DNA of 64,000 nt from Streptomyces formicae. GTDB lineage: Bacteria > Actinomycetota > Actinomycetes > Streptomycetales > Streptomycetaceae. Under the pieces are notes generated by a model. That model was not told where the DNA came from, made no database searches, and worked only from the letters and a program-made list of their open reading frames with translations. The stretch is taken from NCBI RefSeq assembly GCF_002556545.1, contig NZ_CP022685.1, positions 7,790,001 through 7,854,000 on the forward strand, in the 5' to 3' direction. Both the position numbers and the translations under genes were made by a program. This document shows positions 10,347-60,269 of this stretch, piece after piece; within the stretch, counting starts at the first letter, position 1, and each line of letters starts with the position of its first letter.

Positions 10347-10492
10347 GTGCGAAACGTGATCGACTCAGCCGGTTCACGACGATGGTCTTGCTCAGCCCGT
10401 CGGCGGAGGCTTACGTTCTCCTATCTACGCATCAAGTCTACGTGCGTAGAAGCTCTCTGACGTCCTCTCAAGGGCATGTGAAGGAGCAGCTC

Positions 10493-12621: not shown

Positions 12622-12649
12622 GAAGGACCTACAGGAAAGGGAGTGCCCC

Positions 12650-31463: not shown

Positions 31464-33455
31464 ATGACCAGCCGACGGCTCGACGTCTGCCTCATCGGTG
31501 CCGGGCCCCGCGGGCTCTCGGTCCTTGAACGGCTGTGTGCGAACGCCGCGTCGGCACCGGCACCCGCGGCGATCACCGTGCACGTGGTCGACCCGTTCCC
31601 GCCGGGGGCCGGCCAGGTGTGGCGTAGCGACCAGTCCGAACACCTCCTGATGAACACGGTGGCCTCCCAGGTCACGATGTTCACCGACGAGAGCGTGGAG
31701 GTCCGCGGTGAGCTCGCGCCGGGGCCGAGCCTGTACGAATGGGCGCGCTTCCTGGTCCTGATGGGGCCGATGGACGACCGGCACTACGACGAGCGCGTGC
31801 TCGCCGAGGCCCGCGCGCTGGGCCCCGACTCCTACCCCTCGCGCGCCTTCTACGGCTGCTACCTGGAGTGGGTCTTCCAGCGGGTCGTGAAGACGGCACC
31901 GAACCGGCTGACCACCGTCGTCCACAAGGCCCGTGCGGTGGCCCTGGACGACGAGCCCGGCACGGCCGGAGCAGCCGACGGCGGCGCCTCCCAGAGCGTC
32001 CTGCTCGACGACGGCACGCTGATCGAGGGGCTCGACGCCGTCGTCCTCGCCCAGGGGCACCTGCCGGTGCGCCGCTCGCCGCGCCAGCGCGAACTCGGCG
32101 GCTTCGCGCACGCGCACGGCCTCGGCTATGTGGTGCCCGCCAACCCCGCCGACGTGGACCTCTCGCCCGTACAGCCGGGCGAGACGGTCGCGCTGCTCGG
32201 GCTCGGCCTGAACTTCTTCGACTACATGGCGCTCCTGACGCTCGGCAGGGGCGGCAGGTTCGAGCGGCGCGGCGAAGGGGGCAGGGGCGGCCTCGTCTAC
32301 CGGGCGTCGGGCCGCGAGCCGCGCCTGGTCGCCGGGTCCCGGCGGGGCCTTCCCTTCCACTCGCGCGGCGAGAACCAGAAGGGCGCGCACGGCCGTCACG
32401 AGCCCGCCGTGCTGACCCCCGAGGTGATCAAGGACCTGTGCGAGCGGTCCCTGCGCCAGGGCGGCATCGACTTCCGCGGCACCCTGTGGCCGCTGGTCTC
32501 CAAGGAGGTCGAGACGGTCTACTACACCGCGCTGCTCACCGGCGCGGGCCGCCCCGTCCACGCCGAGCTGCTGCGCGCCCGCTATCTGGCGGCCGCGCCG
32601 GGCGGCGCGCGGGAGCAGGAGATCCTCGACGAGTACGGCATCGCGGCGGCGGACCGCTGGGACTGGGACCGGGTCGCCCGCCCTTACGCGGGACGGGAGT
32701 TCGCCGCTCCGGACGAGTTCACCGACTGGCTCCTCGGCCATCTGCACGACGACCTCAGGGCGGCGCGCGCGGGCAACGTGGCGGGGCCGGTCAAGTCGGC
32801 GCTCGACGTCCTGCGCGATCTGCGCAACGAACTCCGGATGGTCATCGACCACGGCGGCCTGACGGGCGGTTCGCACCGCGCGGACCTGGACGCCTGGTAC
32901 ACGCCGCTGAACGCCTTCCTCTCCATCGGCCCGCCCGCCCGGCGCATCGAGGAGGCCATCGCGCTGATCGAGGCCGGTGTGCTGCGGGTGCTCGGCCCCG
33001 ACGTGCGGGCGGCGACGGACGAGTCCGCGCGGGCATTCACCATCGAGTCCGCAGCGGTGCCGGGATCGCTGACCTGGGCGACCACCCTGATCGAGGCCCG
33101 CCTGCCGGAGATCGACCTGCGCGTCACCGCCGACCCGCTGCTGCTGCGGCTCCTCCAGGACCGGCAGTGCCGCTCGTACGAGGTGAGCGACCCCGACGGC
33201 TCCGTGTACGAGACGGGTGGACTCGCCGTCACCGGCGCGCCGTTCCACCTGATCGACGCGTCGGGCAGGCCGCATCCGCGGCGCTTCGCCTTCGGCGTGC
33301 CCACCGAGTCCGTGCACTGGGCGACCGCGGCGGGCATCAGGCCCGGCGTGAACTCCGTGACGCTGCAGGACTCCGACGCCATCTCCCTCGCCGTACTCGG
33401 CCTGGGCGTGGGCGTCCGCCAGGACAGCGAGATGATCGGAGAGCTGACAAGGTGA
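31464..33455 (+). CDS. creE: CreE-like FAD-dependent aspartate N-oxygenase (nitrosuccinate formation)
   Basis: A 663-aa FAD/NAD(P)-binding protein. FAD motif LIGAGPRGLSVLERL is at the N-terminus, a second nucleotide motif LLGLGLNFFDYMALL near residue 240, and FAFGVPTESVHW near the C-terminus. CreE of cremeomycin biosynthesis is this kind of flavoprotein and oxidises L-aspartate to nitrosuccinate. The call rests mainly on the coupled CreD-like lyase immediately downstream (GTGA overlap). GGAGAG precedes the chosen ATG at 31464. Another N-hydroxylation role is possible. Confidence 0.82.
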   Translation: MTSRRLDVCLIGAGPRGLSVLERLCANAASAPAPAAITVHVVDPFPPGAGQVWRSDQSEHLLMNTVASQVTMFTDESVEVRGELAPGPSLYEWARFLVLMGPMDDRHYDERVLAEARALGPDSYPSRAFYGCYLEWVFQRVVKTAPNRLTTVVHKARAVALDDEPGTAGAADGGASQSVLLDDGTLIEGLDAVVLAQGHLPVRRSPRQRELGGFAHAHGLGYVVPANPADVDLSPVQPGETVALLGLGLNFFDYMALLTLGRGGRFERRGEGGRGGLVYRASGREPRLVAGSRRGLPFHSRGENQKGAHGRHEPAVLTPEVIKDLCERSLRQGGIDFRGTLWPLVSKEVETVYYTALLTGAGRPVHAELLRARYLAAAPGGAREQEILDEYGIAAADRWDWDRVARPYAGREFAAPDEFTDWLLGHLHDDLRAARAGNVAGPVKSALDVLRDLRNELRMVIDHGGLTGGSHRADLDAWYTPLNAFLSIGPPARRIEEAIALIEAGVLRVLGPDVRAATDESARAFTIESAAVPGSLTWATTLIEARLPEIDLRVTADPLLLRLLQDRQCRSYEVSDPDGSVYETGGLAVTGAPFHLIDASGRPHPRRFAFGVPTESVHWATAAGIRPGVNSVTLQDSDAISLAVLGLGVGVRQDSEMIGELTR

Positions 33456-34882
33456 CCGGCACCCTTCCCTCCCTCGACGCCGGGCTGCTCAGCCCCGTCC
33501 GCGCGGGCACGCCCGCCGAGGCCGCGACGTCCGACGGCGCCTGGCTGCAGGCCATGCTCGACGCCGAGGCGGCCCTCGTCCGGGCCCAGGCCGCACTCGG
33601 CAACGTCCCCGCTGGGGCCGCCGCGACCATCACCGAGCTGGCCCGCGCCGACCTCCTCGACCTGCGCGAACTCGCCCTGCTCAGCAGGGGCGCGGCCAAC
33701 CCGGTGGTCTCCCTGGTGCAGGCGTTCACCCGGCTCGTGGCCGACAAGGACCCGGCGGCCGCCGACTACGTGCACCGCGGCTCCACCAGCCAGGACATCT
33801 TCGACACCGCGCTGATGCTGGTCGCCGGGCGCGCCCTCGCCCTCCTGGCGGCGGACCTGGAGCACATCGCGGGCTCGCTGCGGGTCCTTGCCGAGGAGCA
33901 CACAGATGCGCTGATGGCGGGTCGTACGCTCGCGCTGCACGCGGTGCCGACGACGTTCGGTCTCAAGGCGGCGGGCTGGCTGACCGCGGTGACCGAGGCG
34001 GCGGACCGGTTGCGGGTGCTGCGGGAGGGCGGCCTCGTCGTCCAACTAGGCGGTGCGGCAGGCACGTTGGCGGGATACGTCGAGTACGAGAAGCTGCACG
34101 GCGGCGGGGCGTCGACGGGCGGCTACGCGCGGCGGTTGACCGAACGGTTCGCGGCGGAGACGGGCCTGAGCGCGCCGACGCTGCCGTGGCACAGCAACCG
34201 GCTGCCGATCGCGGCCCTCGCCGCCGAACTCGCCCTGGTGACCGGGGTGCTCGGGAAGATCGCGGTGGACGTGCAGTCCCTGGCCCGTACGGAGGTCGCC
34301 GAGGTGGCCGAGCCCGCCGCGGTGGGCCGGGGCGTCTCGTCGGCGATGCCGCAGAAGCGGAACCCCGCGCTGGCCACGCTGATCCGCTCGGCAGCCCTCC
34401 AAGTGCCGGCCTACGCCAGTGTGCTGACGCAGACGATGCTGTCGGAGGACGAGCGCTCGGCCGGTGCCTGGCACGCCGAGTGGCAGCCGTTGCGCGAGTG
34501 CCTGCGCCTGGCGGGAGGCGCCGCGCACACCGCGCGCGAGCTGGTGGCGGGCCTGGAGGTGCGGCCCGCGCGGATGCGGGAGAACCTGGGCCTCACCGGC
34601 GGCCTGATCGTCTCGGAACGCCTCGCGGCGGTCCTCGCGCCCGCCCTCGGCAAGGCGGCGGCGAAGGAGGTCATGAGCCGGGCGGCCCACGAGTCCGCGA
34701 CCTCGGGCCGCCCGCTGGCAACGGTACTGGCGGACGAGCCACAGCTAGCCGACCGCTTCACTCCCGAAGCTCTCGCGGAACTCCTGGACCCGGCCGGATA
34801 CACGGGCGCGGCGGCGGAGTTGACGGCCGGAGCGCTGCGGAGGCATCCGGCGGGGGTCGTGCGCTCGGAGGGGGAGGCATGA
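33452..34882 (+). CDS. creD: CreD-like nitrosuccinate lyase (aspartase/fumarase superfamily)
   Basis: A 476-aa lyase. The superfamily signature SSAMPQKRNPA is near residue 295, with HRGSTSQDIFD near 110. CreD releases nitrous acid from nitrosuccinate. General annotation would call this adenylosuccinate lyase or 3-carboxy-cis,cis-muconate cycloisomerase; translational coupling to a CreE-like flavoprotein makes the nitrous-acid role far more likely. The stop overlaps the start of a micro-ORF in a tandem repeat. Confidence 0.82.
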   Translation: MTGTLPSLDAGLLSPVRAGTPAEAATSDGAWLQAMLDAEAALVRAQAALGNVPAGAAATITELARADLLDLRELALLSRGAANPVVSLVQAFTRLVADKDPAAADYVHRGSTSQDIFDTALMLVAGRALALLAADLEHIAGSLRVLAEEHTDALMAGRTLALHAVPTTFGLKAAGWLTAVTEAADRLRVLREGGLVVQLGGAAGTLAGYVEYEKLHGGGASTGGYARRLTERFAAETGLSAPTLPWHSNRLPIAALAAELALVTGVLGKIAVDVQSLARTEVAEVAEPAAVGRGVSSAMPQKRNPALATLIRSAALQVPAYASVLTQTMLSEDERSAGAWHAEWQPLRECLRLAGGAAHTARELVAGLEVRPARMRENLGLTGGLIVSERLAAVLAPALGKAAAKEVMSRAAHESATSGRPLATVLADEPQLADRFTPEALAELLDPAGYTGAAAELTAGALRRHPAGVVRSEGEA

Positions 34883-35013
34883 GGGGCGTGGAGCTGGTCG
34901 GGTCCGGGGCGCTGTGGGGGTTTTCGGGGGCGGTCGGGGGTGCGTGCGCGGGTGGCGAGTTGAGGTATGGCGTCGTGCGGCAGCGTCTGGTGCGGGCGGA
35001 GGGGGAGGGATGA
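34879..35013 (+). CDS. Micro-ORF 1 (44 aa) in tandem repeat
   Basis: Starts in an ATGA overlap with the creD-like stop and ends in an ATGA overlap with micro-ORF 2. The peptide is Gly/Val-rich with a central ALWGFSGAVGG and one Cys. It may be translated by coupling, but composition is extreme and it may simply be repeat filler. Confidence 0.35.
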   Translation: MRGVELVGSGALWGFSGAVGGACAGGELRYGVVRQRLVRAEGEG

Positions 35014-35165
35014 GTCGCGTGGAGCTGTTCCGGTCCCGGGTGTGGTGGGGGTTCTCGGGGGCGGCCGGGTGTGTCTGCGTGGGTGGCGAGTCGGGGTGTG
35101 GCGTGGTGCGGCGTGGTGCGGCGCGGGTGGCGGTCGCGGTCGTGCGGGCGGGGGTCGGCGCGTGA
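35010..35165 (+). CDS. Micro-ORF 2 (51 aa) in tandem repeat
   Basis: Starts at ATG 35010 and ends in a GTGA overlap with the hydrolase start. It shares VEL, WGFSGA, GGE and GVVR blocks with micro-ORF 1 and has three Cys. Its opening residues MSRVEL resemble the hydrolase opening (MSRAEL), suggesting that the repeat came from duplication of the hydrolase 5' end. Confidence 0.35.
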   Translation: MSRVELFRSRVWWGFSGAAGCVCVGGESGCGVVRRGAARVAVAVVRAGVGA

Positions 35166-36007
35166 GTCGCGCGGAGTTGGTCGTCGGTGGGCTGTTGAAC
35201 GCCGTGGCGCGACCCGCTCCCGTTCTCGCGGGGCGCCTCGCCTTCGGGCTCTTCTGTCATCCGGTGCGGCGCGGCAAGGTGCTGCCCGCTGAGCGCGCCG
35301 CCCACGAGCGCGCCGTCACCGAGGAGCTCTCCGTCAACGGCAAGCTGGTGCGCGTGTACCGCTGGGGCACCGGCGAGCGCCCCGTCCTGATGCTGCACGG
35401 CTGGCAGTCGAGGGCCTCGCGGTACGCCGCCTTCGTGCCGCACCTGGAGGCGCTCGGCCTCTCCCCGGTCTCCTTCGACGCCCCGGGGCACGGGAGTTCG
35501 GGCGGCCGGTCCACGACGATCCTCGAGTACCGCGAGATCATCGGCGGGCTCCAGCGGCGGTACGGCGCCTTCCACTCGGTCGTCGCCCACTCCCTCGGCG
35601 CCACCAGCATGCTCCTCGCGCTCCGCGGCGACGTCCGGGCCGGACGCCTGGTCACCGTCGCGGCCGTGAAGGACTTCGGGCACTTCCCCGACGAGTTCGC
35701 CCGGATCCTGGGTCTCCGCAACGGCCTGCGCGAGGACCTGCGCGACCGCATCGAGCACCGGCTCTTCGCCGAAGTCGCCGACCCCTGGGCGCTGTTCGAC
35801 GCCACGCGCGGACCGGAGGAGATCGACGTACCGATGCGGATCATCCACGACACGGACGACGACATGGTGCCGGTGGCACAGGCGCACGCGCTGAAGGATG
35901 CCTACGGGGAACAGGCGGAGCTGGTGATCACCGCGGGGCTCGGACGCCGGAAGATCCTCGGCGAGCCGGAGATCGTCGCATCGGCCATGGAGTTCATCGC
36001 TCGTTAG
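35162..36007 (+). CDS. Alpha/beta hydrolase, probably lacking the catalytic His
   Basis: A 281-aa hydrolase-fold protein. LMLHGWQSRASR is the oxyanion loop, VVAHSLGATS holds the nucleophile Ser near residue 143, and HDTDDDMVPV the acid. Where homologues have GLGHxxIL the sequence reads GLGRRKIL, so the catalytic His appears to be Arg. It may be inactive as a hydrolase, or use another residue. The start is a GTG at 35162 inside the third partial copy of the tandem repeat. Confidence 0.8.
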   Translation: MSRAELVVGGLLNAVARPAPVLAGRLAFGLFCHPVRRGKVLPAERAAHERAVTEELSVNGKLVRVYRWGTGERPVLMLHGWQSRASRYAAFVPHLEALGLSPVSFDAPGHGSSGGRSTTILEYREIIGGLQRRYGAFHSVVAHSLGATSMLLALRGDVRAGRLVTVAAVKDFGHFPDEFARILGLRNGLREDLRDRIEHRLFAEVADPWALFDATRGPEEIDVPMRIIHDTDDDMVPVAQAHALKDAYGEQAELVITAGLGRRKILGEPEIVASAMEFIAR

Positions 36008-36046
36008 TACGGTCGACCGCCGCCCGAGCCGGTCCTCCCTTTTAAA

Positions 36047-36070
36047 AGAACGACCGGTCGTTTAGTTTTA
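36047..36070 (+). promoter_or_regulatory. Cluster operator motif, copy C (perfect palindrome)
   Basis: AACGACCGGTCGTT at 36049-36062 is a perfect 14-bp palindrome and continues into TAGTTTTA, matching the motif at the other cluster promoters. It lies 58 bases upstream of the MFS start and is the best-formed copy, so it defines the dyad of the operator. Confidence 0.72.
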
Positions 36071-36120
36071 TCTGGCATCCGATGCCGGCTGCGGTACCGA
36101 CCACGAAGGGACCACCACCC

Positions 36121-37566
36121 ATGACCACCAGTTCACCTCCCTCACCCGGAGCGGGCCCGAGGGACGTCGCAGGTGTAGATGGAGAGCAGGCGCACCAGAG
36201 CCCCCCGGCGGGCTCGTCGGCGGCCTCCAAGCTCGCGCTGTTCGTCGCGTCGGGGGCCACCTTCCTCGCCGTGCTCGACACCACGGTCGTCAACATCGCC
36301 TTCTCCGACCTGCGCAGCGACTTCACCGACGCCTCGCTGTCCCAGCTGACCTGGGTCGTCACGGCGTACACCGTCGTGTTCGCCGCGCTGCTCGCGGTCG
36401 CGGGCCGCGTCGCCGACGTGATCGGGCGCAAGCGGCTGTTCCTCTGGTCGACGGTCCTGTTCACCGTCGCCTCGGTGCTCAGCGGCTTCGCCACCGGAGT
36501 GCCGATGCTGGTCGGGGCCCGCGCGCTCCAGGGCGTCGGCGCGGCCGGGATGATCCCCTCGGCGCTCGGCCTCGTCCTCCAGCACACCCCGCCCGCCCGC
36601 CGCCAGGTCGCCGTCGGCGTCTGGGGCGCGGTCGGCTCCATGGCCGCGGCCGTCGGGCCGAGCCTCGGCGGACTGCTCGTCGACGTCTGGGGCTGGCGCA
36701 GCGTCTTCCTGATCAACCTGCCGATCGGCCTCGCCATCGTGGCGATCTCCGCCCGCCTGGTCGGTGACACGCCGAGCGGACGCAAGCTGCCCGACCCGGT
36801 CGGCACCCTCGCCCTCGCCCTGGGCATCGGCGGTGTCGTGTTCGGCGTGACGCAGGGCACGGACTGGGGCTGGGGCAGCGGCTCGGTGCTCGCGCTGCTC
36901 GGCGGCGGTCTCGTGCTCGTCGTCGTGGCGCTGCTGCTCTCCACGCGGCGGACCGCGCCCGCCATCGAGCTCGACCTGTGGCGCAACCGCACCTTCGCCG
37001 CCACCAACGTCTCCTCGCTGCTCTTCGGCGCGGCCATGTACTCCTACCTGCTCAGCTCGCTGCTCTTCCTCAACGCCATCTGGGGCTACTCCGAGCTGAA
37101 GGCGGGCCTCGCGGTCACGCCGGGCGCCTTCAGTGCCGCGCTCGGCGCGATCGTGGTCGGCCGCAGGGTCGGCCCGAGCAAGCAGTGGGCCGCGGTGGCC
37201 GCGGGATCCGTGCTCTTCGGCGCGTCCTGCGCCGCGATGTTCCTGCTCCTTGGCACCGAGCGGCAGTACGTCGCCGTCTGGCTGCCCATCGGCATCCTGG
37301 GCGGACTCGGCATCGGCGCCGCGCTGACCGCCATCTCCAACGCCGCCACCGCCGCGCTCGCGCCCCAGCGCTTCGCGTCCGGCACCGGCCTGCTCATGAC
37401 GACACGTCAGATCGGTGGCGCGCTCGGCATCGCGGCGCTCGCCGCGATCCTCGAACGCCACAACGTCCTCGACGACACCGGCTACTTGCAGGTGTTCCTG
37501 GCCTGCGCCATCGGCTCCGTCGCGGCCGCCGCGGCGACTCCGTGGATCCGCGCACGTACGCAGTAG
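36121..37566 (+). CDS. MFS drug exporter, DHA2 (14-TMS, EmrB/QacA) family
   Basis: A 481-aa membrane transporter. Residues 1-~35 are a disordered Pro/Ser/Gly N-tail, then about 14 membrane segments. Motif VLDTTVVNIAFSDL in the first helix is typical for DHA2, and the GRVADVIGRKRLF loop carries motif A. It should export the cluster product using the proton gradient. TetR-type control is indicated by the operator palindrome just upstream, the usual pairing of TetR and exporter. Confidence 0.92.
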   Translation: MTTSSPPSPGAGPRDVAGVDGEQAHQSPPAGSSAASKLALFVASGATFLAVLDTTVVNIAFSDLRSDFTDASLSQLTWVVTAYTVVFAALLAVAGRVADVIGRKRLFLWSTVLFTVASVLSGFATGVPMLVGARALQGVGAAGMIPSALGLVLQHTPPARRQVAVGVWGAVGSMAAAVGPSLGGLLVDVWGWRSVFLINLPIGLAIVAISARLVGDTPSGRKLPDPVGTLALALGIGGVVFGVTQGTDWGWGSGSVLALLGGGLVLVVVALLLSTRRTAPAIELDLWRNRTFAATNVSSLLFGAAMYSYLLSSLLFLNAIWGYSELKAGLAVTPGAFSAALGAIVVGRRVGPSKQWAAVAAGSVLFGASCAAMFLLLGTERQYVAVWLPIGILGGLGIGAALTAISNAATAALAPQRFASGTGLLMTTRQIGGALGIAALAAILERHNVLDDTGYLQVFLACAIGSVAAAAATPWIRARTQ

Positions 37567-37578
37567 CACCGGAGGTAC

Positions 37579-37608
37579 GGGTGACCGGTCCGCCGGGACC
37601 GGTCACCC
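37579..37608 (+). terminator. Hairpin between MFS and desaturase genes
   Basis: A perfect 13-bp stem (GGGTGACCGGTCC and its complement) with loop GCCG, 12 bases after the MFS stop. No T-run follows, so it may be a partial terminator or mRNA-stabilising element. Confidence 0.6.
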
Positions 37609-37664
37609 GCCCCCACCCCGACCACACGGCGAAGAGCCCGACCACACAGCGAAGAGAGAGCGCA

Positions 37665-38639
37665 ATGCCACCCATCGACCGTTCCGACCGAGACGCCGCG
37701 CGCGCGGAGCACTCCCTCCTGGCCGAGCTGCAGCCGGTCGTGGAGGAGAACCTCCACCGCCATCACGAGGTCGCCAAGGAGTGGTTCCCGCACGAGTACA
37801 TCCCCTGGAGCCAGGGCCGGGACTTCGAGGGTCCGCTCGACGGCGCGGCCTGGGAACCCGCGGAGGCGACGCTCCCCGAGGTCGCCCGCACCTCGCTCGT
37901 GGTGAACCTGCTGACCGAGGACAACCTGCCCGGCTACCACTTCGCGGTGGCCGAGTTCGGCAGGGACGGGGCCTGGGGCAACTGGGTCAACCGCTGGACG
38001 GCCGAGGAGGCCAGGCACGGCACCGCGCTGCGCGACTACCTCCTGGTCACCCGGGCCGTCGACCCGCGCGCCCTGGAGCGGGCCAGGATGGCGCACATGG
38101 AAGGCGGCTACGACCGCCCCGACGGCTTCAGCGCCGTGCACGCGATCGCGTACGCGGCCTTCCAGGAGCTCGCCACCCGCATCTCGCACCGCAACACGGG
38201 ACTGGCGAGCACCGACCCGGTCTGCGACGCCCTGCTCGCGCGGATCGCGGCCGACGAGAACCTCCACATGGTCTTCTACCGCAACCTCGTCGAGGCCGCC
38301 TTCGAGCTGGCGCCCGACACCGCCATGGAGGTGGTCAGGGACGTCGTGACCGGGTTCGAGATGCCCGGTTCGACGATCAAGGACTTCGGGCGCAAGTCCG
38401 CGGAGATCGCCCTCGCGGGCATCTACGACCTGCGGCTGCACCACGACAGCGTCGTCATGCCGATCCTGCGCAAGCTGCGCGTCTTCGAGCGCGAGGGGCT
38501 CGGTCCCGCGGGCGAGGCGGCTCGCGAGGAGCTCGCGGGCTTCCTGTCGAAGCTGGACTCCCAGGCGACCTCGTTCACCGACCGGCGTGAGGGCATCAGG
38601 GCGTCCCGTGCCAAGCGAGCGGCCGCCATGGCTTCTTGA
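37665..38639 (+). CDS. Acyl-ACP desaturase (DesA/FAB2 diiron family)
   Basis: A 324-aa soluble diiron desaturase. Ligand motifs are NRWTAEEARHGTALRDYL near residue 115 (ExxH) and ADENLHMVFYRN near 205 (ExxH). It closely follows the mycobacterial/streptomycete acyl-ACP desaturase pattern, with an ERARMAHMEGGY segment. It should introduce a double bond in a carrier-bound acyl chain, with electrons from a ferredoxin; one is encoded at 62.3 kb. Its stop overlaps a TTG that could start the NRPS gene. Confidence 0.88.
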   Translation: MPPIDRSDRDAARAEHSLLAELQPVVEENLHRHHEVAKEWFPHEYIPWSQGRDFEGPLDGAAWEPAEATLPEVARTSLVVNLLTEDNLPGYHFAVAEFGRDGAWGNWVNRWTAEEARHGTALRDYLLVTRAVDPRALERARMAHMEGGYDRPDGFSAVHAIAYAAFQELATRISHRNTGLASTDPVCDALLARIAADENLHMVFYRNLVEAAFELAPDTAMEVVRDVVTGFEMPGSTIKDFGRKSAEIALAGIYDLRLHHDSVVMPILRKLRVFEREGLGPAGEAAREELAGFLSKLDSQATSFTDRREGIRASRAKRAAAMAS

Positions 38640-44600: not shown

Positions 44601-45976
44601 TCGCCCGCGCGGCGGCGGACGGGTCCACCGGACTCGTCGCCTTCCTGGTCGGTGATCCCGACTCCACCGACCTGGCGGCGCTCCTCGGTGAACTGCGCAC
44701 GCATCTGCCGGAGTTCATGGTGCCGGGCCGCTTCGCGTGGCTGCCCGAGCTGCCGCTGACACCCAGCGGGAAGAGGGACGACGCGGCACTGCGGACCCTG
44801 CCGATCGGCGGGACGGAGGCGGCGCGGGGGCAGGCCCCCAGGGACGCGTACGAGCGGACGCTGGTGGAGCTGCTCGGCGGGCTCCTCGGCGTCGACGGCG
44901 TCGGCGTCCACGACGACATCTTCGCGCTCGGCGCCACCTCGCTCACCACCATGCGGCTCGTCGTCCTGATCGAGCAGCGGTACGGCGTCACCATCCCCAT
45001 CTCCGGGTTCATCGCGGCGCCGACGGTCGCCGCGCTCGCGGAACTCCTCCGCTCCGGCGGCGCCACGCTCTCCTTCGACCCGCTGGTGCCGATCCGCGCC
45101 GAGGGCGACAGGGTGCCGCTGTTCCTCGCCCACCCGATGGGCGGCAACGTGCTCTGCTACGTGCCGCTGGCCCGCCATCTCCCCGACGGGCAGCCGCTGT
45201 TCGCCTTCCAGGCGTCCGGCGGCGACCTCGGCACCGAGCCGCTGCGCACCGTCCCCGACATCGCCGCGAGCTACATCGAAGCGATGCGCGGGGTGCGGCC
45301 CCAGGGCCCGTACGTCGTCGGCGGCTGGTCCTTCGGCGGCTTCGTGGCCTTCGAGATGGCACGCCAACTGCGCGCCGGGGGACACGAGGTGGCCGAGGTG
45401 ATCCTCCTGGACACGGTCGCCCTCGGCCCGGCGGAGGAACGTCAGGGCTACACCGACGAGGCGCTGCTCGGCTGGTTCTTCTGGGAGCTGCTCCTGCTCG
45501 GCCGGGGCGGCGACTCGCCCCTTGAGGCCATCCCCGCCGAACTCACCACGCTGGACGAGAAGTTCGCCTTCATCGCGAGGACCGCCGCCGAGGAGGGCAT
45601 CCTGCCCGCGGACAGCGACGGCTCGCTCGTCGGCAGGCTCTTCGGGGTGTACGAGGCCAACTGGCGTGCCACGCAGCACTATCAGCCCGAACCCGGCGCC
45701 GACGACATCACCCTGATCCGCGCGTCCGAGCCGCTGCCCGGTGTCCTGCGGGCGATGCACGGCGCCGGCGGCACCCAGCACACCGACCCGGCCAACGGGT
45801 GGCACACCATGACCACCGGCCACGTGAAGGTCGTCCACGTACCCGGCGACCACCTTTCGATCATGGAGGAGCCGCACGTGGCCGACGTCGCCGCCGCGGT
45901 CGCCGAACTGGCCGAGTCGAGCACCGCAGAGAGCACTGCCGAGAGCACCGCCGAGAAGGGACAGCGACGTGCCTGA
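38636..45976 (+). CDS. Bimodular nonribosomal peptide synthetase (C-A-T-C-A-T-TE)
   Basis: A ~2,446-aa NRPS. Domains by residue: C1 ~28-455 (HHLLLDG at 162), A1 ~480-985, T1 ~1000-1065 (GGDSLLML), C2 ~1085-1530 (HHALLDG), A2 ~1545-2035, T2 ~2045-2115 (GATSLTTM), TE ~2130-2420 (GWSFGG). A1 pocket reads D-V-W-H-V-S-L-V-D-K, the serine code. A2 reads about D-V-Q-F-C-S-Q-V-V-K, like proline-type DVQ codes at the ends but unassigned. No epimerase. C1 leads the protein, so an acyl or aryl group from a separate carrier should cap Ser. The only canonical start is a TTG at 38636; an ATC at 38705, after AGGAC, gives a more natural N-terminus (ISTDKVQLSPYQ). Confidence 0.93.
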   Translation: MTTPGPSGPARSVTAPTREQDKLISTDKVQLSPYQRDIWFAESRAPGSPQFNGAVYERFTGAVDAELLRACFTRALERHDTFRLRFDDADGMPCQWLADTLRDDGEPVVDLVDLSAEPDPEAACRAWRERAMATPFALRDRRLFRATLLREGDDAVQLFLKGHHLLLDGRGAEVLHTELMEDYARRARGQEPRDRGPAPSVLAAVTGRDDYFAAQEYADDRAHHRRELALMEPNFFPRRPPASGSAFGLHAFTLPGAVVESIKESGTTPFAYIAAALGTWLARVHRSNQAVIGVPLLNRRTRAELTAVAQYANTLPLRVEVPEGKPLAGIAADVQDAVGDLQQHQRLPIGDLLRDLPADGSKERRLFDVTLSYLTLRTPLPLDGVERGGVSFTAPPHEQEALAVAVVGARGSSDLRVEVRYATDVFDGDLTVTSLVEHLTSLIAHGLDKPELPAGELYMLSAREQEDLQRFARGPRVPFADDTTLHALFEERVARFPDRTAVLGDDEQEHISYAELDALANQVARSLRSLRVGRDDRVAVLMERGPRMLAAVLGVLKSGGAYVPVDPGYPAARIGHILQDSGAKVVVTDTEAPDLPVPDGTPVCPVDDLMQGSAATPEPVAGPRDLAYVIYTSGSTGRPKGVMVEHRSVVNRLAWMQRALPIGEDDVLLQKTPISFDVSVWELFWWAIEGASVALPPTGAEKDPRRLLDAVAQHRVSVVHFVPSMLGPFLDLLEESPRHRALAGSLRHVVCSGEALPPGRVDQFNRVFAGVAGAPALTNLYGPTEATVDVCAHTCSADPERPVTRVPIGRPIDNTELYVVGPDGTPQPIGVPGELCVGGVALARGYLKRPGLTREKFVPAPFVEGGRLYRTGDLARWLADGTLEYLGRIDGQVKIRGNRVEPGEVRDALTRIPGVRDAAVVDRTSPARGTHLVGYWTGERDLDPRWLREQLAAELPEFMIPAHLPRIDAIPLTPNGKLDRRALPDPDTSRGEPGAPPRTETERVLAGIWADVLGAARVGIHDDYYALGGDSLLMLRLRALAERQGIHFSLNDLVWHPTVAELAAHATTGVADPTADLAPFALVSRVDRARITDAVDAFPLTRLQLGLVYHSLQSERSAVYHDVFRYRLAMAWDEKHFRAAFARLADRHPALRSSFDLGGFTEPLQLVHADAVGGLDVVDLRGRPARDAEDEIHAHIEQRRYHRYRFEQAPLYLFRAHVRDDGVDLVLGFHHALLDGGSVANLLTELLQDYLHALGADIGPVTDDAPPAAAHHVGGERVALADPAAREHWKTVTAGAEALRLDGFAAAGPPRGDDLVVRLVELPDDLVRGARELAREQALPVKSLLFAAYALTLRLFCGGSGGAEAPDVTTGLITHGRPEREGAERMVGLFLNTVPVRVTGTEGSWLDVVRELFRQERAGRPHQRYPLSAIQEDHGAPVLHTAFNYVHFHVLSEVLRLPDVRLEEFTTWEETDFQLLVNAFTHPVDGGVTLRIDGEGRSITPAQAELFGATYTDVLRRIVEEPDEAPDFAFLAEAEGERSGAGAPFDEDVVSLFRRQADRTPDAIAVSSSEHAWTYRELADRAERAAGRLIALGAEPGARVGIAMDRSPETIAAILGTAMAGAACVPLDTGYPAARIAAMVADAEPFRIIARAADAGALAGSLGEGAPLLTAESLFADETPRPPVPAAPISLESTAYILFTSGSTGRPKGVVMPHRSLANLIGWQIGAASAAGGAPTAQYAPLSFDVSFQEIYSTLCSGGTLRLVAEAERRDMPALLRMLDREGVARIFLPYVALQQLAEASAALGVVPRALRVICSSGEQLRVTDEIRALLAALPGAILENQYGPTESHVVAAHTLTGDPAAFPAIVPIGTPLTGTGVLVLDPKGRPVPTGVQGELFLTGAALADGYLGDPALTEERFVRLALPGGTRTAYRTGDLGRVLPDGALVYAGRADTQVKVRGYRVEPAEAEVALVRLASGPAGGGIKEAAVVARAAADGSTGLVAFLVGDPDSTDLAALLGELRTHLPEFMVPGRFAWLPELPLTPSGKRDDAALRTLPIGGTEAARGQAPRDAYERTLVELLGGLLGVDGVGVHDDIFALGATSLTTMRLVVLIEQRYGVTIPISGFIAAPTVAALAELLRSGGATLSFDPLVPIRAEGDRVPLFLAHPMGGNVLCYVPLARHLPDGQPLFAFQASGGDLGTEPLRTVPDIAASYIEAMRGVRPQGPYVVGGWSFGGFVAFEMARQLRAGGHEVAEVILLDTVALGPAEERQGYTDEALLGWFFWELLLLGRGGDSPLEAIPAELTTLDEKFAFIARTAAEEGILPADSDGSLVGRLFGVYEANWRATQHYQPEPGADDITLIRASEPLPGVLRAMHGAGGTQHTDPANGWHTMTTGHVKVVHVPGDHLSIMEEPHVADVAAAVAELAESSTAESTAESTAEKGQRRA

Positions 45977-47141
45977 GCGCACCAACCCCCGAGCCATCGT
46001 GATCGGAGCCGGCATCGGAGGTCTGGCGACCGCCGTGGCCCTGCGCCGCGTGGGCGTGGAGGTGGAGATCTACGAGCGGGCACCCGACCTGCGCCCCGCG
46101 GGCTTCGGCATCTCCGTGATGAGCAACGCGGTGGCCGCCCTGCGCGCCCTGGACATCGACCTCGGTCTGGAGAAGCGCGGCCAGACGATCCTGCACACCG
46201 AGATCATGACCGACAAGGGCCGCACCCTGCGCTCGCTGCCCCTGGAGAGCGCGGGCGACCGGCTCGGCGCCCCCAGCGTCGCGATGTACCGGGGCGACCT
46301 CCAGGCGGCGCTGCTCGACGCGCTCGGCGGACTGCCCGTCTCGCTGGGCGCCGTCGCCACCGGCTACGACACCACGGGCGACGGCGTCCGCGTCACGTTC
46401 GAGGACGGCAGGGAGGCCACCGGCGACATCCTGATCGGCGCCGACGGCATCAACTCCGCGATCCGGCGGGCCGTCACCGGCGACACGAGGGGCCCGCGCT
46501 ACGGCGGCTTCCTGTGCTGGCTCTCCGTCACCCCCTTCACCCACCCGAAGATCACCAAGGGGTTCAACGCGCACTACTGGGGCCTCGGCAGCCGGTTCGG
46601 CCTGCACGACGTGGGCAAGGGCCGCGCCTACTGGTGGGGCACCGTGAACATGCCCGCCGACGCCGCCCGCGACTGGGACGGCGACAAGGACCAGATCGTG
46701 CGCGCCTACGCGGGCTGGGCGGACGAGGTGCGCGAGGCGATCAGGACCACGCCGGTCGAGGACATCGTCGCCGTACCGGCGCAGGACAGGCCGTTCCTGG
46801 AGAACTGGGGCGACGGACCCGTCACCCTCCTCGGCGACGCCGCCCACCCCATGCTGCCCAGCCTCGGCCAGGGCGGCAGCACCGCCATCGAGGACGCCGT
46901 GGTGCTCGCGCAGTGCCTGGCGTCGCGCAAGGACCCCGTGGCGGCCCTGCGCGCATACGAGAAGCTGCGGCGCGCGCGCACCAGGGAAATGGTGGAGGTC
47001 TCCCGCAAGTTCGGCGGCTTCGAGCAGCTGGAGAACCCCGTGCTGCGCGCCGTGCGCGACGTCTATCTGCGCCACGCCCCCCAGTCCGTGCTCTTCAAGC
47101 CGTTCCAGCGGGCCCTGACGCCCCAACTGCTCGACGAATGA
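45969..47141 (+). CDS. Group A FAD-dependent aromatic monooxygenase
   Basis: A 390-aa flavoprotein hydroxylase of the salicylate/4-hydroxybenzoate type. FAD motif VIGAGIGGLATAVALRR at residues ~10-26, DILIGADGINSAIR near 155, and GDAAHPMLPSLGQGG near 285. It is followed by 3-amino-4-hydroxybenzoate genes, so hydroxylation of that acid, as CreL does in cremeomycin biosynthesis, is a fair guess. The GTG start overlaps the NRPS stop by 8 bases. Confidence 0.87.
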   Translation: MPERTNPRAIVIGAGIGGLATAVALRRVGVEVEIYERAPDLRPAGFGISVMSNAVAALRALDIDLGLEKRGQTILHTEIMTDKGRTLRSLPLESAGDRLGAPSVAMYRGDLQAALLDALGGLPVSLGAVATGYDTTGDGVRVTFEDGREATGDILIGADGINSAIRRAVTGDTRGPRYGGFLCWLSVTPFTHPKITKGFNAHYWGLGSRFGLHDVGKGRAYWWGTVNMPADAARDWDGDKDQIVRAYAGWADEVREAIRTTPVEDIVAVPAQDRPFLENWGDGPVTLLGDAAHPMLPSLGQGGSTAIEDAVVLAQCLASRKDPVAALRAYEKLRRARTREMVEVSRKFGGFEQLENPVLRAVRDVYLRHAPQSVLFKPFQRALTPQLLDE

Positions 47142-47164
47142 CCCATCGACCTACGGGAGCAGCC

Positions 47165-47587
47165 ATGAACCACCCCGATTCCGGCGCCGAGGCCAAAAGC
47201 GTCGTGCACCGTTACCTCAAGGCCCTGCGCGAACGCGATGCCGCGGCCATCCCGCAGCTCATCGCCGCCGACGCCGTCTACCGCATACCCGGCGACCACC
47301 CGGTGGCGGGCACCTGGAAGGGGCTCGCGGAGATCGCCGAGAACTTCCTGCTGCCCATGGGGGAGCGCTTCGACCCGACGGCCGACTACGCGGTCGAGGT
47401 CCTGCACGTCATCGCCGAGGGCCCCGAGGTGTCGGTCGAGTGCGTCACCCGGGCCACGACCCGGGACGGCGCGCCCTACGAGCTGGACATCAGCGCCCAG
47501 TTCACCGTCGAGGACGGGCGGATCACCAGCATGCGGGAGTACTTCGACACCCAGTACTTCGCCCGTACGCTCTTCGGCCAGGGCTGA
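47165..47587 (+). CDS. SnoaL-like small alpha+beta-barrel protein
   Basis: A 140-aa protein of the SnoaL/NTF2-like fold (VVHRYLKALRERDAAAIPQL at the start; AQFTVEDGRITSMREYFDTQYF at the end). Members are isomerases, cyclases or dehydratases of polyketide and aromatic pathways, and some are hydroxylation partners. It lies between an FAD monooxygenase and a GriI-type aldolase; it may act on the product of either. Confidence 0.82.
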   Translation: MNHPDSGAEAKSVVHRYLKALRERDAAAIPQLIAADAVYRIPGDHPVAGTWKGLAEIAENFLLPMGERFDPTADYAVEVLHVIAEGPEVSVECVTRATTRDGAPYELDISAQFTVEDGRITSMREYFDTQYFARTLFGQG

Positions 47588-47590
47588 CGG

Positions 47591-48424
47591 GTGACCGCCG
47601 CCCGCACCCGCTTCGGCGGGAAAGAGCTCCGTATGAGCAGGCTCTCGCGAAGGGCCGACGAACGCTATCTGTTCATTCCGCTTGACCACTCCGTCTCCGA
47701 CGGGCCGGTCGCCGACGCCGTCGAGTTCGACCGGCTGCTCGGCCGGATCGTGGCGGGCGGCGCGGACGCCGTGATCGTGCACAAGGGCCGTGCCCCCAGG
47801 ATCGACCCGCGCCATCTGCGCTCCTGCGCGCTGATCGTGCACCTCAGCGCGGGCACGGTGCACGCCGCCGACGAGAACGCCAAGGTGCTCGTCGGCGGCG
47901 TGGAGGACGCGGTGCGGCTCGGCGCCGACGCGGTCAGCGTGCACGTCAACGTGGGATCGGAGACCGAGGCGGCGCAGCTCGCCGACCTCGGCCGCATCGC
48001 CACCGAGTGCCAGCACTGGAACCTGCCACTGCTCGCGATGATCTACCCCAGGGGCCCCAGGATCGCCGACGCCTGCGACCCCGGCCTGCTCTCGCACGTG
48101 GTGAACATCGCCGTCGACCTGGGCGCCGACCTGGTCAAGACCTCGGCCGCCGCGCCGCTGCACCGGATGGCGGAGGTCGTGGCGAGCTGCCCGGTCCCTG
48201 TCCTGGTGGCGGGCGGGCCCGAGAACGGCGCGGACCTGAGCGGCTACGCGCGAGCCGTGCTCGACGCCGGATGCGCCGGACTGGCCGTCGGGCGGCGGGT
48301 GTTCACCAGCGCGGACCCCGAACGTCTGGTCCGCGACCTCGCCGAGACCGTGCACGCGCCGCGCGACCTCACGGACCTGCCGTCGCCCGTCGCCGGGCTG
48401 TACGACACGGTCGCCACGCTCTGA
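47591..48424 (+). CDS. griI: GriI-like class I aldolase (3-amino-4-hydroxybenzoate, first step)
   Basis: A 277-aa TIM-barrel DhnA/ADH-synthase family aldolase. PLDHSVSDGP near residue 30 and the Schiff-base Lys in ADLVKTSAAAP near 180 are present. GriI condenses aspartate semialdehyde with dihydroxyacetone phosphate, giving the C7N precursor of 3-amino-4-hydroxybenzoate. The adjacent DHQ-synthase-II homologue supports this over a role in aromatic amino acid synthesis. Start is GTG 47591; an ATG at 47633 is possible. Confidence 0.88.
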   Translation: MTAARTRFGGKELRMSRLSRRADERYLFIPLDHSVSDGPVADAVEFDRLLGRIVAGGADAVIVHKGRAPRIDPRHLRSCALIVHLSAGTVHAADENAKVLVGGVEDAVRLGADAVSVHVNVGSETEAAQLADLGRIATECQHWNLPLLAMIYPRGPRIADACDPGLLSHVVNIAVDLGADLVKTSAAAPLHRMAEVVASCPVPVLVAGGPENGADLSGYARAVLDAGCAGLAVGRRVFTSADPERLVRDLAETVHAPRDLTDLPSPVAGLYDTVATL

Positions 48425-48493
48425 CGCACGCGGGGCGCCCCGCCGCACCTCGCCCATGACTCTTCCCTGCCTCTTCCATCCCGAGGGACTCAC

Positions 48494-49612
48494 GTGAAAT
48501 TCGCCTGGATCGACATCCGTTCCGTCGCCCCCGAGCAGGTCGCCGCCGTCGTCGACGCGGCCGTGCACGCCCGGCTCGACGGCATCGTGGACTCCCACTC
48601 CGAGGTGCTCTCCACGCTGCCGCCCACGGTGCGCAAGGTGCTCCTGCCCCAGGGCGCCGCGCCCGAGGACGCGGCGGAGGGCGAGGGCCCCGACCTCGTC
48701 GCCGTGACCGTCACCGACGAGCAGGAACTCAACGCGCTGCGCCTGCGGTTCCTCGCGGGCGAGAAGTCGGCGACCGCGTACGTCGAGGTGACCGACCAGC
48801 GCACCCTCGACCTCGCCTGCGGAGCCGCCGCCGACCTGCCGTACACCGTGGTGCGCTTCCGCGACCCGACCAAGATCCCGCTGGAGATCGTCATCGCGGC
48901 CGCGGACCGCTCCGACGGCAGGCTGATCTGCGAGGTCGGCTCGGTCGAGGAGGCCGAGATCGTCGTCGGCGTCCTGGAGAAGGGCTCCGAGGGCCTGCTG
49001 ATGGCACCCTCCGGCGTCGACGACGTCTTCAAGCTCGCCGAACTCCTCGCCACCAAGACCGAACCGCTCGACCTCACCTCGCTGACCGTCGAGTCGATCG
49101 AGCACTCGGGCATGGGCGACCGCGTGTGCGTCGACACCTGCACGCACTTCGAGAAGGACGAGGGCATCCTGGTGGGCTCGTACGCCCACGGGTTCGTGCT
49201 CTGCGTCAGTGAGACGCACCCGCTGCCGTACATGCCGACCCGCCCGTTCCGCGTCAACGCCGGTGCCCTGCACTCCTACACCTACGGCGCCGACAACCGC
49301 ACCAACTACCTGAGCGAACTCCAGGCGGGCGCCACGGTGCTCGGCGTGGGCGCCGACGGCCGTACGCGCCGCATCGCGGTGGGCCGCGTCAAGCTGGAGT
49401 CCCGTCCGCTCCTGACCATCAAGGCGAAGTCCCCCGAGGGCGTCGAGGTCAGCCTGACCGTCCAGGACGACTGGCACGTGCGGGTCCTCGGCCCCGGCGC
49501 CGCCGTCCTCAACGTCACCGAACTCAAGGCGGGTGACCAGCTGTTGGGCTACACGCCGACCGACAAGCGGCACGTCGGCTGGCCCGTCGCCGAGTTCTGC
49601 ATCGAGAAGTGA
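48494..49612 (+). CDS. griH: GriH-like 3-dehydroquinate synthase II family protein
   Basis: A 372-aa enzyme of the archaeal-type DHQ synthase II family. Features: FAWIDIRS at the start, CVDTCTHFEKDEGILVGSY near residue 215, and NAGALHSYTYGADN near 255. In grixazone and related pathways GriH turns the GriI product into 3-amino-4-hydroxybenzoate. The GTG at 48494 is a firm start by family alignment. Actinobacteria make DHQ with the unrelated AroB, so this is a secondary-metabolism gene. Confidence 0.9.
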   Translation: MKFAWIDIRSVAPEQVAAVVDAAVHARLDGIVDSHSEVLSTLPPTVRKVLLPQGAAPEDAAEGEGPDLVAVTVTDEQELNALRLRFLAGEKSATAYVEVTDQRTLDLACGAAADLPYTVVRFRDPTKIPLEIVIAAADRSDGRLICEVGSVEEAEIVVGVLEKGSEGLLMAPSGVDDVFKLAELLATKTEPLDLTSLTVESIEHSGMGDRVCVDTCTHFEKDEGILVGSYAHGFVLCVSETHPLPYMPTRPFRVNAGALHSYTYGADNRTNYLSELQAGATVLGVGADGRTRRIAVGRVKLESRPLLTIKAKSPEGVEVSLTVQDDWHVRVLGPGAAVLNVTELKAGDQLLGYTPTDKRHVGWPVAEFCIEK

Positions 49613-49621
49613 GCGGGCCCC

Positions 49622-51043
49622 GTGGAGAGCGAAACCGACAACGAACCCCTCGCCGAGGAACTCGCGCGGGCGCTGGCCGCCCCGGCCGCCGAAACGGTCT
49701 GGGCGCGGGCCGGGACCGAGGTGACCTGGGACCGCCTTCGCGCTGAAGTCGCCGCGCTGGAAGAGGACTTCGCGGCGCGCGGCATCGGCCCCGGATCGGC
49801 CGTGGCCGTGCGGATGACACCGAGCTTCAGCTATCTGTGGACCGTCCTGGCGCTCTGGTCGCGCGGCGCACAGGTCGTCCTCGTCGACCCGCGCTCGACC
49901 CGGGCCGAGGTGGACAGGATGCTCGCCCTGTGCGCGCCGGGCCACCTGATCGACTCGGGCGACGCGGGGGCGGTCCGCGTCGAGTTCCGCGACACCTGCG
50001 CATCACGGATCACCGCGCGTCCCGAGGGGCGCGCGGCCCGCACCGCGCACGCGCTGATCCAGTTCACCTCGGGCTCCACGGGACACCCGAAGGCGATCGG
50101 CCGCACGGCGGCGTCCCTGCTCGCCGAACTCGACCGGTTCGCCGCCCTGCCCGAGATGCCCCGCGCCGGTGAACGGGTGCTGCTCGGCAACTCGCTGACG
50201 CACTCCTTCGGTCTGCTCGGCGGCGTGCTGCACGCGCTCCGCGCGAGCGCCACCCTGCTGTTCGCACCGGACGCCAGGCCCCGCACGCTCCTGACCACCC
50301 TCGCGGAACAGCGGGCGCACGTCCTGTTCGGCGTGCCCTTCCACTTCGAGCTGCTCACCCGCGTGTCCGCCCCGGTCCCCCTGCCCGACCTGCGCCTCGC
50401 CGTCTCCGGCGGCGAGGCGCTGCGCGTCGAGGTGTACGAACGGTTCGAGGAGCGGTACGGGGTCCGGATCGGCCAGGCGTACGGCATGACCGAGACCGGC
50501 ATCGCCGCCGTCGACCTGGCGGGGGCGCACCGGCCCCCGGTGGTGGGCCTCCCGGCCCCGGGCATGGAACTCGACGTACGGGCGGGCGAGTTGTACATCC
50601 GCACGGACGCCTCCCCGTACGCGTACGCGGAGGGCGGCGCGGCGGATCGGTACGCCGACGGCTGGCTGCGCACGCACGACCGCTGCCGCATCGACGCGAA
50701 CGGCGTGCTCTCGCTGCACGGCAGGACCGACGCCCTGGTGGTGGTCGGCGGGCTCAAGGTCGACCTCAGGGAGGTCGAACTGGCCCTGGCCGCGCACCCC
50801 GACGTCACCGAGGTGGTGGTGCTCTTCGAGAACGCCATCGAGGCGTTCGTGGGCGTGCGGGGCGGCACGGCGGCCCGCGACCTCCAGGACTGGTGCCGCG
50901 AGCGGCTCAGCCTCTACAAGGTCCCGCGCCGGTTCGAGGTCGCCCCCGCGATCCCGCGCACGAGCAACGGAAAGCTCCTGCGCGACCGCGACGCGCTCGT
51001 CGCCCGCATGGGCGCGGCCGTCCCGAGCGGGGCCACGGCATGA
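49622..51043 (+). CDS. AMP-dependent aryl/acyl ligase (short form)
   Basis: A 473-aa ANL ligase. P-loop FTSGSTGHPKAIGRT near residue 150, AYGMTETGIA near 285, and SNGKLLRDRD with catalytic Lys near 455. It is a paralogue of the ligase at 22907 by length and shared motifs (KxIGRTxxSLLAE, GGLKVDLxEVE). Placed directly after GriI/GriH and coupled to FabV and an ACP gene, it probably loads 3-amino-4-hydroxybenzoate or a derivative onto that ACP. A diazotase role is an alternative. Confidence 0.82.
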   Translation: MESETDNEPLAEELARALAAPAAETVWARAGTEVTWDRLRAEVAALEEDFAARGIGPGSAVAVRMTPSFSYLWTVLALWSRGAQVVLVDPRSTRAEVDRMLALCAPGHLIDSGDAGAVRVEFRDTCASRITARPEGRAARTAHALIQFTSGSTGHPKAIGRTAASLLAELDRFAALPEMPRAGERVLLGNSLTHSFGLLGGVLHALRASATLLFAPDARPRTLLTTLAEQRAHVLFGVPFHFELLTRVSAPVPLPDLRLAVSGGEALRVEVYERFEERYGVRIGQAYGMTETGIAAVDLAGAHRPPVVGLPAPGMELDVRAGELYIRTDASPYAYAEGGAADRYADGWLRTHDRCRIDANGVLSLHGRTDALVVVGGLKVDLREVELALAAHPDVTEVVVLFENAIEAFVGVRGGTAARDLQDWCRERLSLYKVPRRFEVAPAIPRTSNGKLLRDRDALVARMGAAVPSGATA

Positions 51044-52323: not shown

Positions 52324-52568
52324 TCACGACCTATGAGATCCGCAGGCTGCTCACCCAGTACTCCATCGTCCCGCTCACCCTGGAGGAACTCGACGAGGAC
52401 ACCCCGCTCACCCTCGACTCGCTGGCCCTGGTCTGGTTCCAGCACGCCATGGACGAGGAGCACGGGATCAGCGTCGACCCCTACGGCGCCGACCTCGAAC
52501 TCTTCACCTCGGTACGCGGGATCCACACCTACCTCGCGGCCCTCGGGGCGGGCACCGATGCCCGCTGA
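52320..52568 (+). CDS. Acyl carrier protein
   Basis: An 82-aa carrier protein. The phosphopantetheine Ser is in TLDSLALVWF (residue ~34). The GTG start overlaps the FabV stop, and the 3' end overlaps the ketosynthase start by 11 bases. It is the obvious carrier for the ligase, FabV and the ketosynthase next to it. Confidence 0.87.
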   Translation: MITTYEIRRLLTQYSIVPLTLEELDEDTPLTLDSLALVWFQHAMDEEHGISVDPYGADLELFTSVRGIHTYLAALGAGTDAR

Positions 52569-57701: not shown

Positions 57702-57726
57702 GGCGTACTCCCTGAGGTCGGTCGGA

Positions 57727-60266: not shown

Positions 60267-60269
60267 CTG

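Follow-up and report, generated by a model that had tools for sequence, protein, structure and literature searches.

What raises a question at this locus of Streptomyces formicae is the company that a CreE/CreD nitrous-acid gene pair keeps: do these genes form one pathway with the neighbouring genes for 3-amino-4-hydroxybenzoate (3,4-AHBA), a non-ribosomal peptide synthetase (NRPS) and type II ketosynthases (KS), or several pathways that share an address? The stretch analysed, called the window here, comprises 64,000 nucleotides (contig NZ_CP022685.1, positions 7790001-7854000 of a 9.6 Mb single-contig genome; coordinates below count from its first base). A first-pass annotation had read the genes as one pathway acting on a new hybrid. 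The gene content, protein families, distribution and synteny that we observed, through Pfam and NCBIfam scans of the window proteins, solved-structure relatives for selected proteins and comparison with related genomes, point elsewhere: the locus is probably a mosaic in which four separable modules have been stacked at a single site. Each of them most likely retained substrates of its own, and chemical coupling between them in this strain is possible.

The evidence that carries this reading is a nested series of states at one site, which lies between a gene for an acyl-acyl carrier protein (ACP) desaturase-type protein and a ferredoxin/patatin gene pair. In the window, the site and its contents are as follows:

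37665-38639, plus strand: acyl-ACP desaturase-type protein of module 1 (solved relative 1za0)
38636-45976, plus strand: NRPS of module 2, C-A(Ser)-T-C-A-T-TE by domain scan, true start uncertain
45969-47141, plus strand: FAD monooxygenase of module 2
47165-47587, plus strand: SnoaL-like protein of module 2
within 55000-62302, minus strand: two acyl-CoA-dehydrogenase-type proteins of module 4, with long C-terminal extensions
59439-60266, minus strand: protein of unknown family, module 4
60270-60536, minus strand: ThiS-like protein of module 4
60533-62302, minus strand: FAAL-like ligase of module 4
62286-62636, minus strand: ferredoxin, right end of module 1
62633-63583, minus strand: patatin-like protein, right end of module 1, under its Pfam cut-off

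In six relatives (G394, G200, G158, G023, G195 and G277) the desaturase lies directly next to the ferredoxin/patatin pair. In S. flavidovirens G392, module 4 sits between the desaturase and the ferredoxin pair and is preceded by a different small gene; in S. poriferorum G313, modules 2 and 4 occupy the site and nothing of 47591-54898 is present. The window carries 47591-54898 (module 3, the 3,4-AHBA cassette) between SnoaL and module 4, and among the genomes examined module 3 is at the site only here. The order of gain that we infer from these states would begin with module 4, between the desaturase and ferredoxin genes, followed at the same point by module 2 (the Ser-type NRPS, FAD monooxygenase and SnoaL) and then by module 3, in this genome alone among those examined.

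Module 2 also stands apart from the rest. The NRPS trio is present in G060 (NRPS 66% identical), where the 40 kb examined contain none of the other window modules, and in G313 the trio (NRPS 73% along almost its whole length, FAD monooxygenase 87%, SnoaL 80%) accompanies the diazotase core of module 1, without GriH anywhere in the genome. The NRPS and FAD monooxygenase reported at first pass were both recovered; the first A-domain code of the NRPS, DVWHVSLVDK (read by eye), presumably means serine, and no A domain coding for 4-hydroxyphenylglycine (Hpg) was recognised by eye. A starter swap towards an AHBA acyl group left no signal, the C1 domain being as conserved relative to G313 as the other domains (C1 77.8%, A1 72.0%, C2 73.5%, A2 78.5%, TE 77.9%). 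The NRPS frame has no plain ATG or GTG near the expected start (38636-38720), where the window and G313 share the stretch ATCAGTACC; a rare start codon is therefore possible.

Module 1, the diazotase-HmaS core, accounts for the left part of the locus (Ava and Cma names refer to the avenalumic acid and p-coumaric acid clusters):

14058-15572, minus strand: FAAL-type ligase, left arm
15569-15997, minus strand: hotdog thioesterase, left arm
16346-17320, minus strand: possible diiron protein, left arm, with a very weak match to acyl-ACP desaturase 1za0 (E 0.026)
17340-17600, minus strand: ACP-like protein, left arm, by sequence and without a Pfam match
17618-18238, minus strand: mycothiol-type protein, left arm
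18383-19726, minus strand: aminotransferase (PF00155), HpgT candidate, conserved in relatives
21537-22616, plus strand: Hmo, 4-hydroxymandelate oxidase type (5zzp, E 5e-92)
22922-24328, plus strand: stand-alone AMP ligase lig22, pocket motifs different from those of AHBA-type ligases
24340-25038, minus strand: phosphopantetheinyl transferase (PF01648, 50 bits), start codon uncertain, found via conservation
25057-25323, plus strand: ACP of AvaA2 type by sequence comparison, without the Trp..His pair
25516-27162, plus strand: putative AvaA6-related ATP-dependent diazotase (best solved relative 8ztz)
27159-28427, plus strand: FabF-like KS with Cys/His/His
28450-29514, plus strand: HmaS, 4-hydroxymandelate synthase (best solved relatives 2r5v and 3zgj)
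29569-30486, plus strand: PhyH-type oxygenase (PF05721)
30486-31394, plus strand: prephenate dehydrogenase
31464-33455, plus strand: CreE, aspartate N-oxygenase (nitrosuccinate synthase) by homology (PF13454)
33452-34882, plus strand: CreD, nitrosuccinate lyase
35177-36007, plus strand: alpha/beta hydrolase
36271-37566, plus strand: MFS exporter

A diazotase match (E 1e-100 or better) was found in 36 of 392 genomes of the genus, own included: nine others at 72-83% identity, one at 60% (G080), one at 49% and 24 at 43-48%. Scanning named genomes yielded 71 loci, from which L144 (25% identity, off-target) was dropped; 56 of the remaining 70 span at least 21 kb. The nine closest genus members together with L074, L075, L076, L081, L082 and L131 form a set of 15 close relatives. 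Core gene order is common to the window and the nine, with gaps: G200 and G277 miss the hydrolase (35177) at the core site, G031 and G154 are without prephenate dehydrogenase, CreE/CreD and the ferredoxin pair, and G183 has none of 35177-37665 after CreD; the contigs of G183 and G313 stop early. The left arm from FAAL to ACP is syntenic in five (G200, G158, G023, G195 and G277).

HmaS accompanies the diazotase in 65 of the 70 loci, PhyH in 63, the ligase in 62, the ACP in 62, an Hmo type in 55 and the aminotransferase in 49, and GriI/GriH matches in the examined flank number zero. These loci represent an HmaS-linked diazotase family without 3,4-AHBA genes in the flanks examined. At the whole-genome level GriH is absent from 13 of the 15 close relatives (9/9 of the genus set, and L074, L075, L076 and L082 among the other six); it lies on a different contig from the core in L081 and >1 Mb from the core in L131. 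Nine more distant HmaS-type genomes lack it in six cases and have it in three (L083, L092 and L094).

The first-pass annotation noted that known routes use an ATP-dependent diazotase of the ligase family, and protein 25516-27162, left of the block it described, is likely an enzyme of that kind. Its sequence is 44-49% identical over full length to ava-type and spinamycin-cluster enzymes, and E333, a conserved Mg-binding Glu, is invariant in 14 aligned rows and would equal CreM E352. Its best curated model is the AvaA6 equivalog NF058622, in which it scores 482 bits, short of the cut-off of 975, and three ava-type members score 1057-1107. In a tree without L131 and the other diazotases whose called length was <= 500 aa, the window enzyme belongs to a 15-member clade (support 0.999) separate from nine ava-type sequences (0.997), and the spinamycin-cluster diazotase lies inside its wider clade. 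A substrate switch left no trace, since only 2 of the 274 columns that are invariant among 14 relatives are changed (the relatives' own range is 0-15). The substrate of the diazotase core is unlikely to be derived from 3,4-AHBA and is probably tied to the HmaS/Hmo/aminotransferase arm.

The solved relatives of HmaS (2r5v best) and Hmo (5zzp) back the Hpg supply genes proposed at first pass. We take 2r5v and 3zgj to be Hms enzymes; 5zzp is the best-ranked named 4-hydroxymandelate oxidase and ranks after two entries titled L-lactate oxidase. No close characterised relative was found for the aminotransferase at 18383. As an alpha-amino-acid ligase, lig22 was rejected on its A4 region, VHVLGL, which is without the NRPS-type Asp and gives weak evidence against direct Hpg loading. 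The phosphopantetheinyl transferase frame was matched in 11 relatives and is 63-75% identical in the eight of these that were listed. The ferredoxin at 62286 may serve the desaturase-type protein (37665-38639) and the possible diiron protein (16346-17320).

CreE and CreD were borne out as the flavoprotein and lyase coupled by GTGA, a four-base overlap. CreD scores 716.8 bits in the nitrosuccinate lyase model NF052556 (curated cut-off 650) and has the SS-loop VSSAMPQKRN. CreE matched no NCBIfam model; its 55% identity over 640 aa to the CreE of an ava-type cluster argues for the aspartate N-oxygenase type. The pair adjoins the diazotase core in 9 of the 15 close relatives, and CreD-like genes occur somewhere in all 16 genomes searched, own included.

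Module 3 consists of eight open frames of coding-like composition, with four overlapping junctions:

47591-48424, plus strand: GriI (PF01791; BagB/FevI model 277 bits, under the cut-off of 500)
48494-49612, plus strand: GriH (PF01959; BagC/FevH model 446 bits, under the cut-off of 750)
49622-51043, plus strand: AvaA1-type ligase lig49, expected to load 3,4-AHBA
51040-52323, plus strand: FabV-type enoyl reductase (NF043048, 421 bits, cut-off 400)
52320-52568, plus strand: ACP of AvaA3/CmaA3 type with a Trp..His pair, by sequence comparison
52558-53766, plus strand: KS, Cys and His motifs kept
53856-54470, plus strand: short protein like a chain-length factor (CLF), KS cysteine motif absent
54467-54898, plus strand: hotdog thioesterase (PF03061)

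The GriI and GriH homologues named at first pass are thus present, both under cut-offs that are curated 'exception' cut-offs, and the type II ketosynthases are the KS at 27159 and 52558, with the CLF-like protein at 53856. The ligase lig49 is 47-50% identical to the ligases of four ava-type clusters and has pocket motifs in common with them and not with lig22. The Trp..His pair comprises the residues named for the starter ACP in the consulted part of the p-coumaric acid paper (PMC10777205). The closest relatives of the KS at 52558 are ava-type KS (identities of up to 59% along almost the whole protein), and 10 of 31 other genomes with a similar KS have no diazotase match (E 1e-100).

The genes of a manumycin/carpatamide-type cassette (3,4-AHBA genes, ligase, ACP, KS, thioesterase) are all found in module 3, with homologues of 40-69% in Kitasatospora mediocidica G401. 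The manumycin-like cluster of this strain provides relatives of GriH (69-71%), the ligase (55%), the CLF (52%) and the thioesterase (59%); this cluster includes a gene for an N-acyltransferase, the 55 kb examined contain no diazotase, and the genome encodes a PF00797 protein and an ALAS-like protein. The window differs from the carpatamide/manumycin type in that no PF00797 arylamine N-acyltransferase was matched among the window proteins scanned, so that the N-acyltransferase and C5N pairing of that type was not found; C5N genes are dispensable in some manumycin-type members. FabV was rejected as a cassette marker: its best relatives (43-46%) lack any cassette gene within 1.5 kb flanks at 11 of 11 loci, a count that disregards weak ANL cross-matches, at two of these loci, to lig49 and the NRPS.

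Reactions and products can be proposed from these families. GriI and GriH would make 3,4-AHBA, lig49 would load it on the ACP at 52320, the KS/CLF would extend the bound starter, FabV would saturate the chain and the hotdog thioesterase would release 3-(3-amino-4-hydroxyphenyl)propanoic acid or a longer alkanoic acid. Because the cassette contains FabV and a hotdog thioesterase, the module 3 product should be a saturated 3-amino-4-hydroxyphenyl acid. In the consulted part of the carpatamide report (PMC11595529), ctd29-31 serve 3,4-AHBA, ctd32 is an enoyl reductase, ctd34 a KS and ctd36 thioesterase-like, and carpatamides I-K and M have a saturated amino-hydroxyphenyl-type lower chain, made via ctd32. 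The gene order given there suggests that module 3 is the same kind of cassette as ctd29-36, with the difference that module 3 encodes a short CLF-like protein, whereas no chain-length factor is reported in the same part.

Since the core and the NRPS trio each occur apart in relatives, and KS/CLF/ACP blocks resembling the cassette are found in genomes lacking a diazotase match, the single pathway of the first-pass annotation is not supported; nor is chemistry on a new hybrid, as the diazotase and NRPS show none of the changes expected of a new aryl substrate. Several observations weigh against the mosaic: i) from 21 kb rightwards, most of module 1 runs on the same strand as modules 2 and 3, with short or no gaps; ii) the AvaA2-type ACP, present at 14 of 15 comparable KS loci, is missing from the cassette, and the sole match to it in the window is ACP 25057 of module 1, which hints that module 3 borrows it; iii) an ava-type diazotase is also encoded in 21 of the 31 other genomes whose KS resembles 52558; iv) G080 (60% diazotase) has an HmaS-type core with GriI/GriH ~25 kb away; v) five of the 15 close relatives (G031, G154, G023, G195 and L082) are without CreE/CreD at the core in the stretch examined, L131 (1/15) has CreE alone beside it, and CreE and CreD occur in 14 and 9 of the 70 diazotase loci (flank examined), which makes the presence of the nitrite genes beside the HmaS-linked family variable; vi) the gain order is read from present-day states, with no reconciled tree, and loss in relatives is possible.

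The rival that survives best is a merged pathway, in which the module 3 acid is built with ACP 25057 as malonyl carrier, diazotase 25516 uses CreE/CreD nitrite to turn its amine into an o-diazoquinone, and the NRPS adds serine and a second residue. The modules together hold counterparts of AvaI, H, A1, A2, A3, A4, A5, A6, E and D, module 1 has the parts missing from the cassette, and strand and tight spacing fit; however, the diazotase and NRPS C1 are unshifted from relatives without AHBA, those relatives retain module 1, or modules 1 and 2, without GriH, and module 2 stands apart in G060. We regard this pathway as unlikely. Far less probable is a chance pile-up, some of it silent or decaying, in which the AHBA cassette is a passenger: the stack occurs once among the relatives examined and the second ACP is missing from the cassette, but all eight cassette frames are open, coding-like and joined by the four overlaps, and the KS at 52558 retains its Cys and His motifs.

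The first-pass annotation also had the cluster diazotise or deaminate an aryl amine; a diazotase is there, but no AvaA7 for the deamination was found in the window. Searching the window for AvaA7 and AvaB revealed no homologue of either (best E 0.099 and 0.009, respectively); three queries were used for each, taken from the corresponding places in ava-type clusters and assigned by gene order and family. AvaA7 gave two matches of ~30 bits only in the own genome, the best 31 bits over part of the protein; AvaA7-type deamination was rejected on these grounds. An ava/cma-like deamination to a phloretic-type or p-coumaric-type acid, which the joint presence of a diazotase and an AHBA cassette would allow, is consequently the least credible alternative, as AvaA7 and AvaB were not found in the window and the diazotase falls under the AvaA6 cut-off that three ava-type members exceed.

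Known systems resemble the locus in part. The ava/cma clusters (consulted part of PMC10777205) likewise have CreE/CreD, GriH/GriI, an AvaA1-type ligase, both ACP types, KS, a short CLF and an AvaA6-family diazotase. In the window these genes are split over two modules, the diazotase belongs to another clade (482 vs 1057-1107 bits), AvaA7 and AvaB were not found, and an NRPS, HmaS/Hmo, FabV and module 4 are added; GriH/GriI, KS-CLF and the diazotase lie ~20 kb apart with other genes between, not in one operon-like block. The spinamycin cluster (Streptomyces albospinus, L136) shares a diazotase (49%, in the wider clade), ligase (49%), ACP, KS and CreE/CreD, the last as a fused frame that fits the fused SpiED described for spinamycin (PMC11705231). 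Its genome has no GriH; unlike the window, it shows no HmaS, Hmo, PhyH, GriI or GriH in 10 kb flanks and no full-length NRPS match in 80 kb. In the crx region of Streptomyces sp. CS057, CreE/CreD/CreM and GriH/GriI adjoin an NRPS that proved uninvolved in AHBA products (PMC11429834, in part); the consulted text mentions no hydroxymandelate, hydroxyphenylglycine or ketosynthase. Glycopeptide-type antibiotics have Hpg supply genes, and the window is alike in HmaS, Hmo and a nearby prephenate dehydrogenase and aminotransferase, and unlike them in that no Hpg-coded A domain was recognised by eye in it.

Further observations concern the flanks and module 4. A likely pyrimidine or hydantoin catabolic set (carbon-nitrogen hydrolase, class-III aminotransferase, dihydropyrimidinase/hydantoinase; 10478-14044) lies left of the cluster. 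The module 4 operon also occurs in G392 and G313 and, in part and in another context, in G011; among the 392 genomes, its protein at 59439 is matched in four, counting the window's own, and one of these matches is at 33%. The ThiS/FAAL pairing may indicate thiocarboxylate chemistry. The small gene of G392, presumably a MaoC-like dehydratase by its sequence, sits where modules 2 and 3 are found in the window.

HmaS-linked loci occur in Streptomyces, Kitasatospora, Actinokineospora and others. In many of the 70 loci, mostly those of Kitasatospora/Actinokineospora, ACP and diazotase are separated by a second ACP, KS and short CLF, and some loci encode E1 dehydrogenase subunits together with a DUF3050 protein. 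A diazotase-KS-HmaS-PhyH cassette (L083-L143) was seen in Kitasatospora, Actinokineospora and relatives, in two copies in some genomes (e.g. K. mediocidica L094/L119, A. globicatena L083/L103), and is often accompanied by E1 dehydrogenase and the DUF3050 protein, which is haem-oxygenase-like. In Actinokineospora globicatena a divergent diazotase-like ANL protein (L172:13607-15310, 33% to the window enzyme) adjoins GriI/GriH.

Each kind of enzyme at the locus is already known. Among the loci examined, the four modules make up a new combination, and as the first-pass annotation suspected, the whole set was met in no other locus of the genomes and literature searched. The ava-type survey required AvaH/AvaI homologues, KS-CLF and a diazotase (PMC10777205, consulted part) and so, through its requirement for 3,4-AHBA genes, would leave out HmaS-linked clusters that are without them. 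Among the papers listed from the open-licence literature, titles and abstract starts gave no report of an HmaS-diazotase cluster (reports elsewhere are possible), that literature gave no paper linking hydroxymandelate with nitrous acid, and the consulted parts of PMC13061610 and PMC13411527 make no HmaS link.

Thus co-location of CreE/CreD with GriI/GriH, a genome-mining signal for diazo chemistry, can stem from stacked modules, and closely related loci with and without each module are available for direct gene-swap comparison. The HmaS-diazotase family is a more interesting lead than the four-module locus itself. As a speculative and rather doubtful proposal, its diazotases might act through nitrous acid on a benzylic or alpha-amine from the HmaS/Hmo/aminotransferase branch, conceivably Hpg or a carrier-bound derivative, to give an aryl alpha-diazo acyl intermediate. 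If true, this would open a new way of making alpha-diazo carbonyl groups and would extend the ANL diazotases to a new class of substrates.

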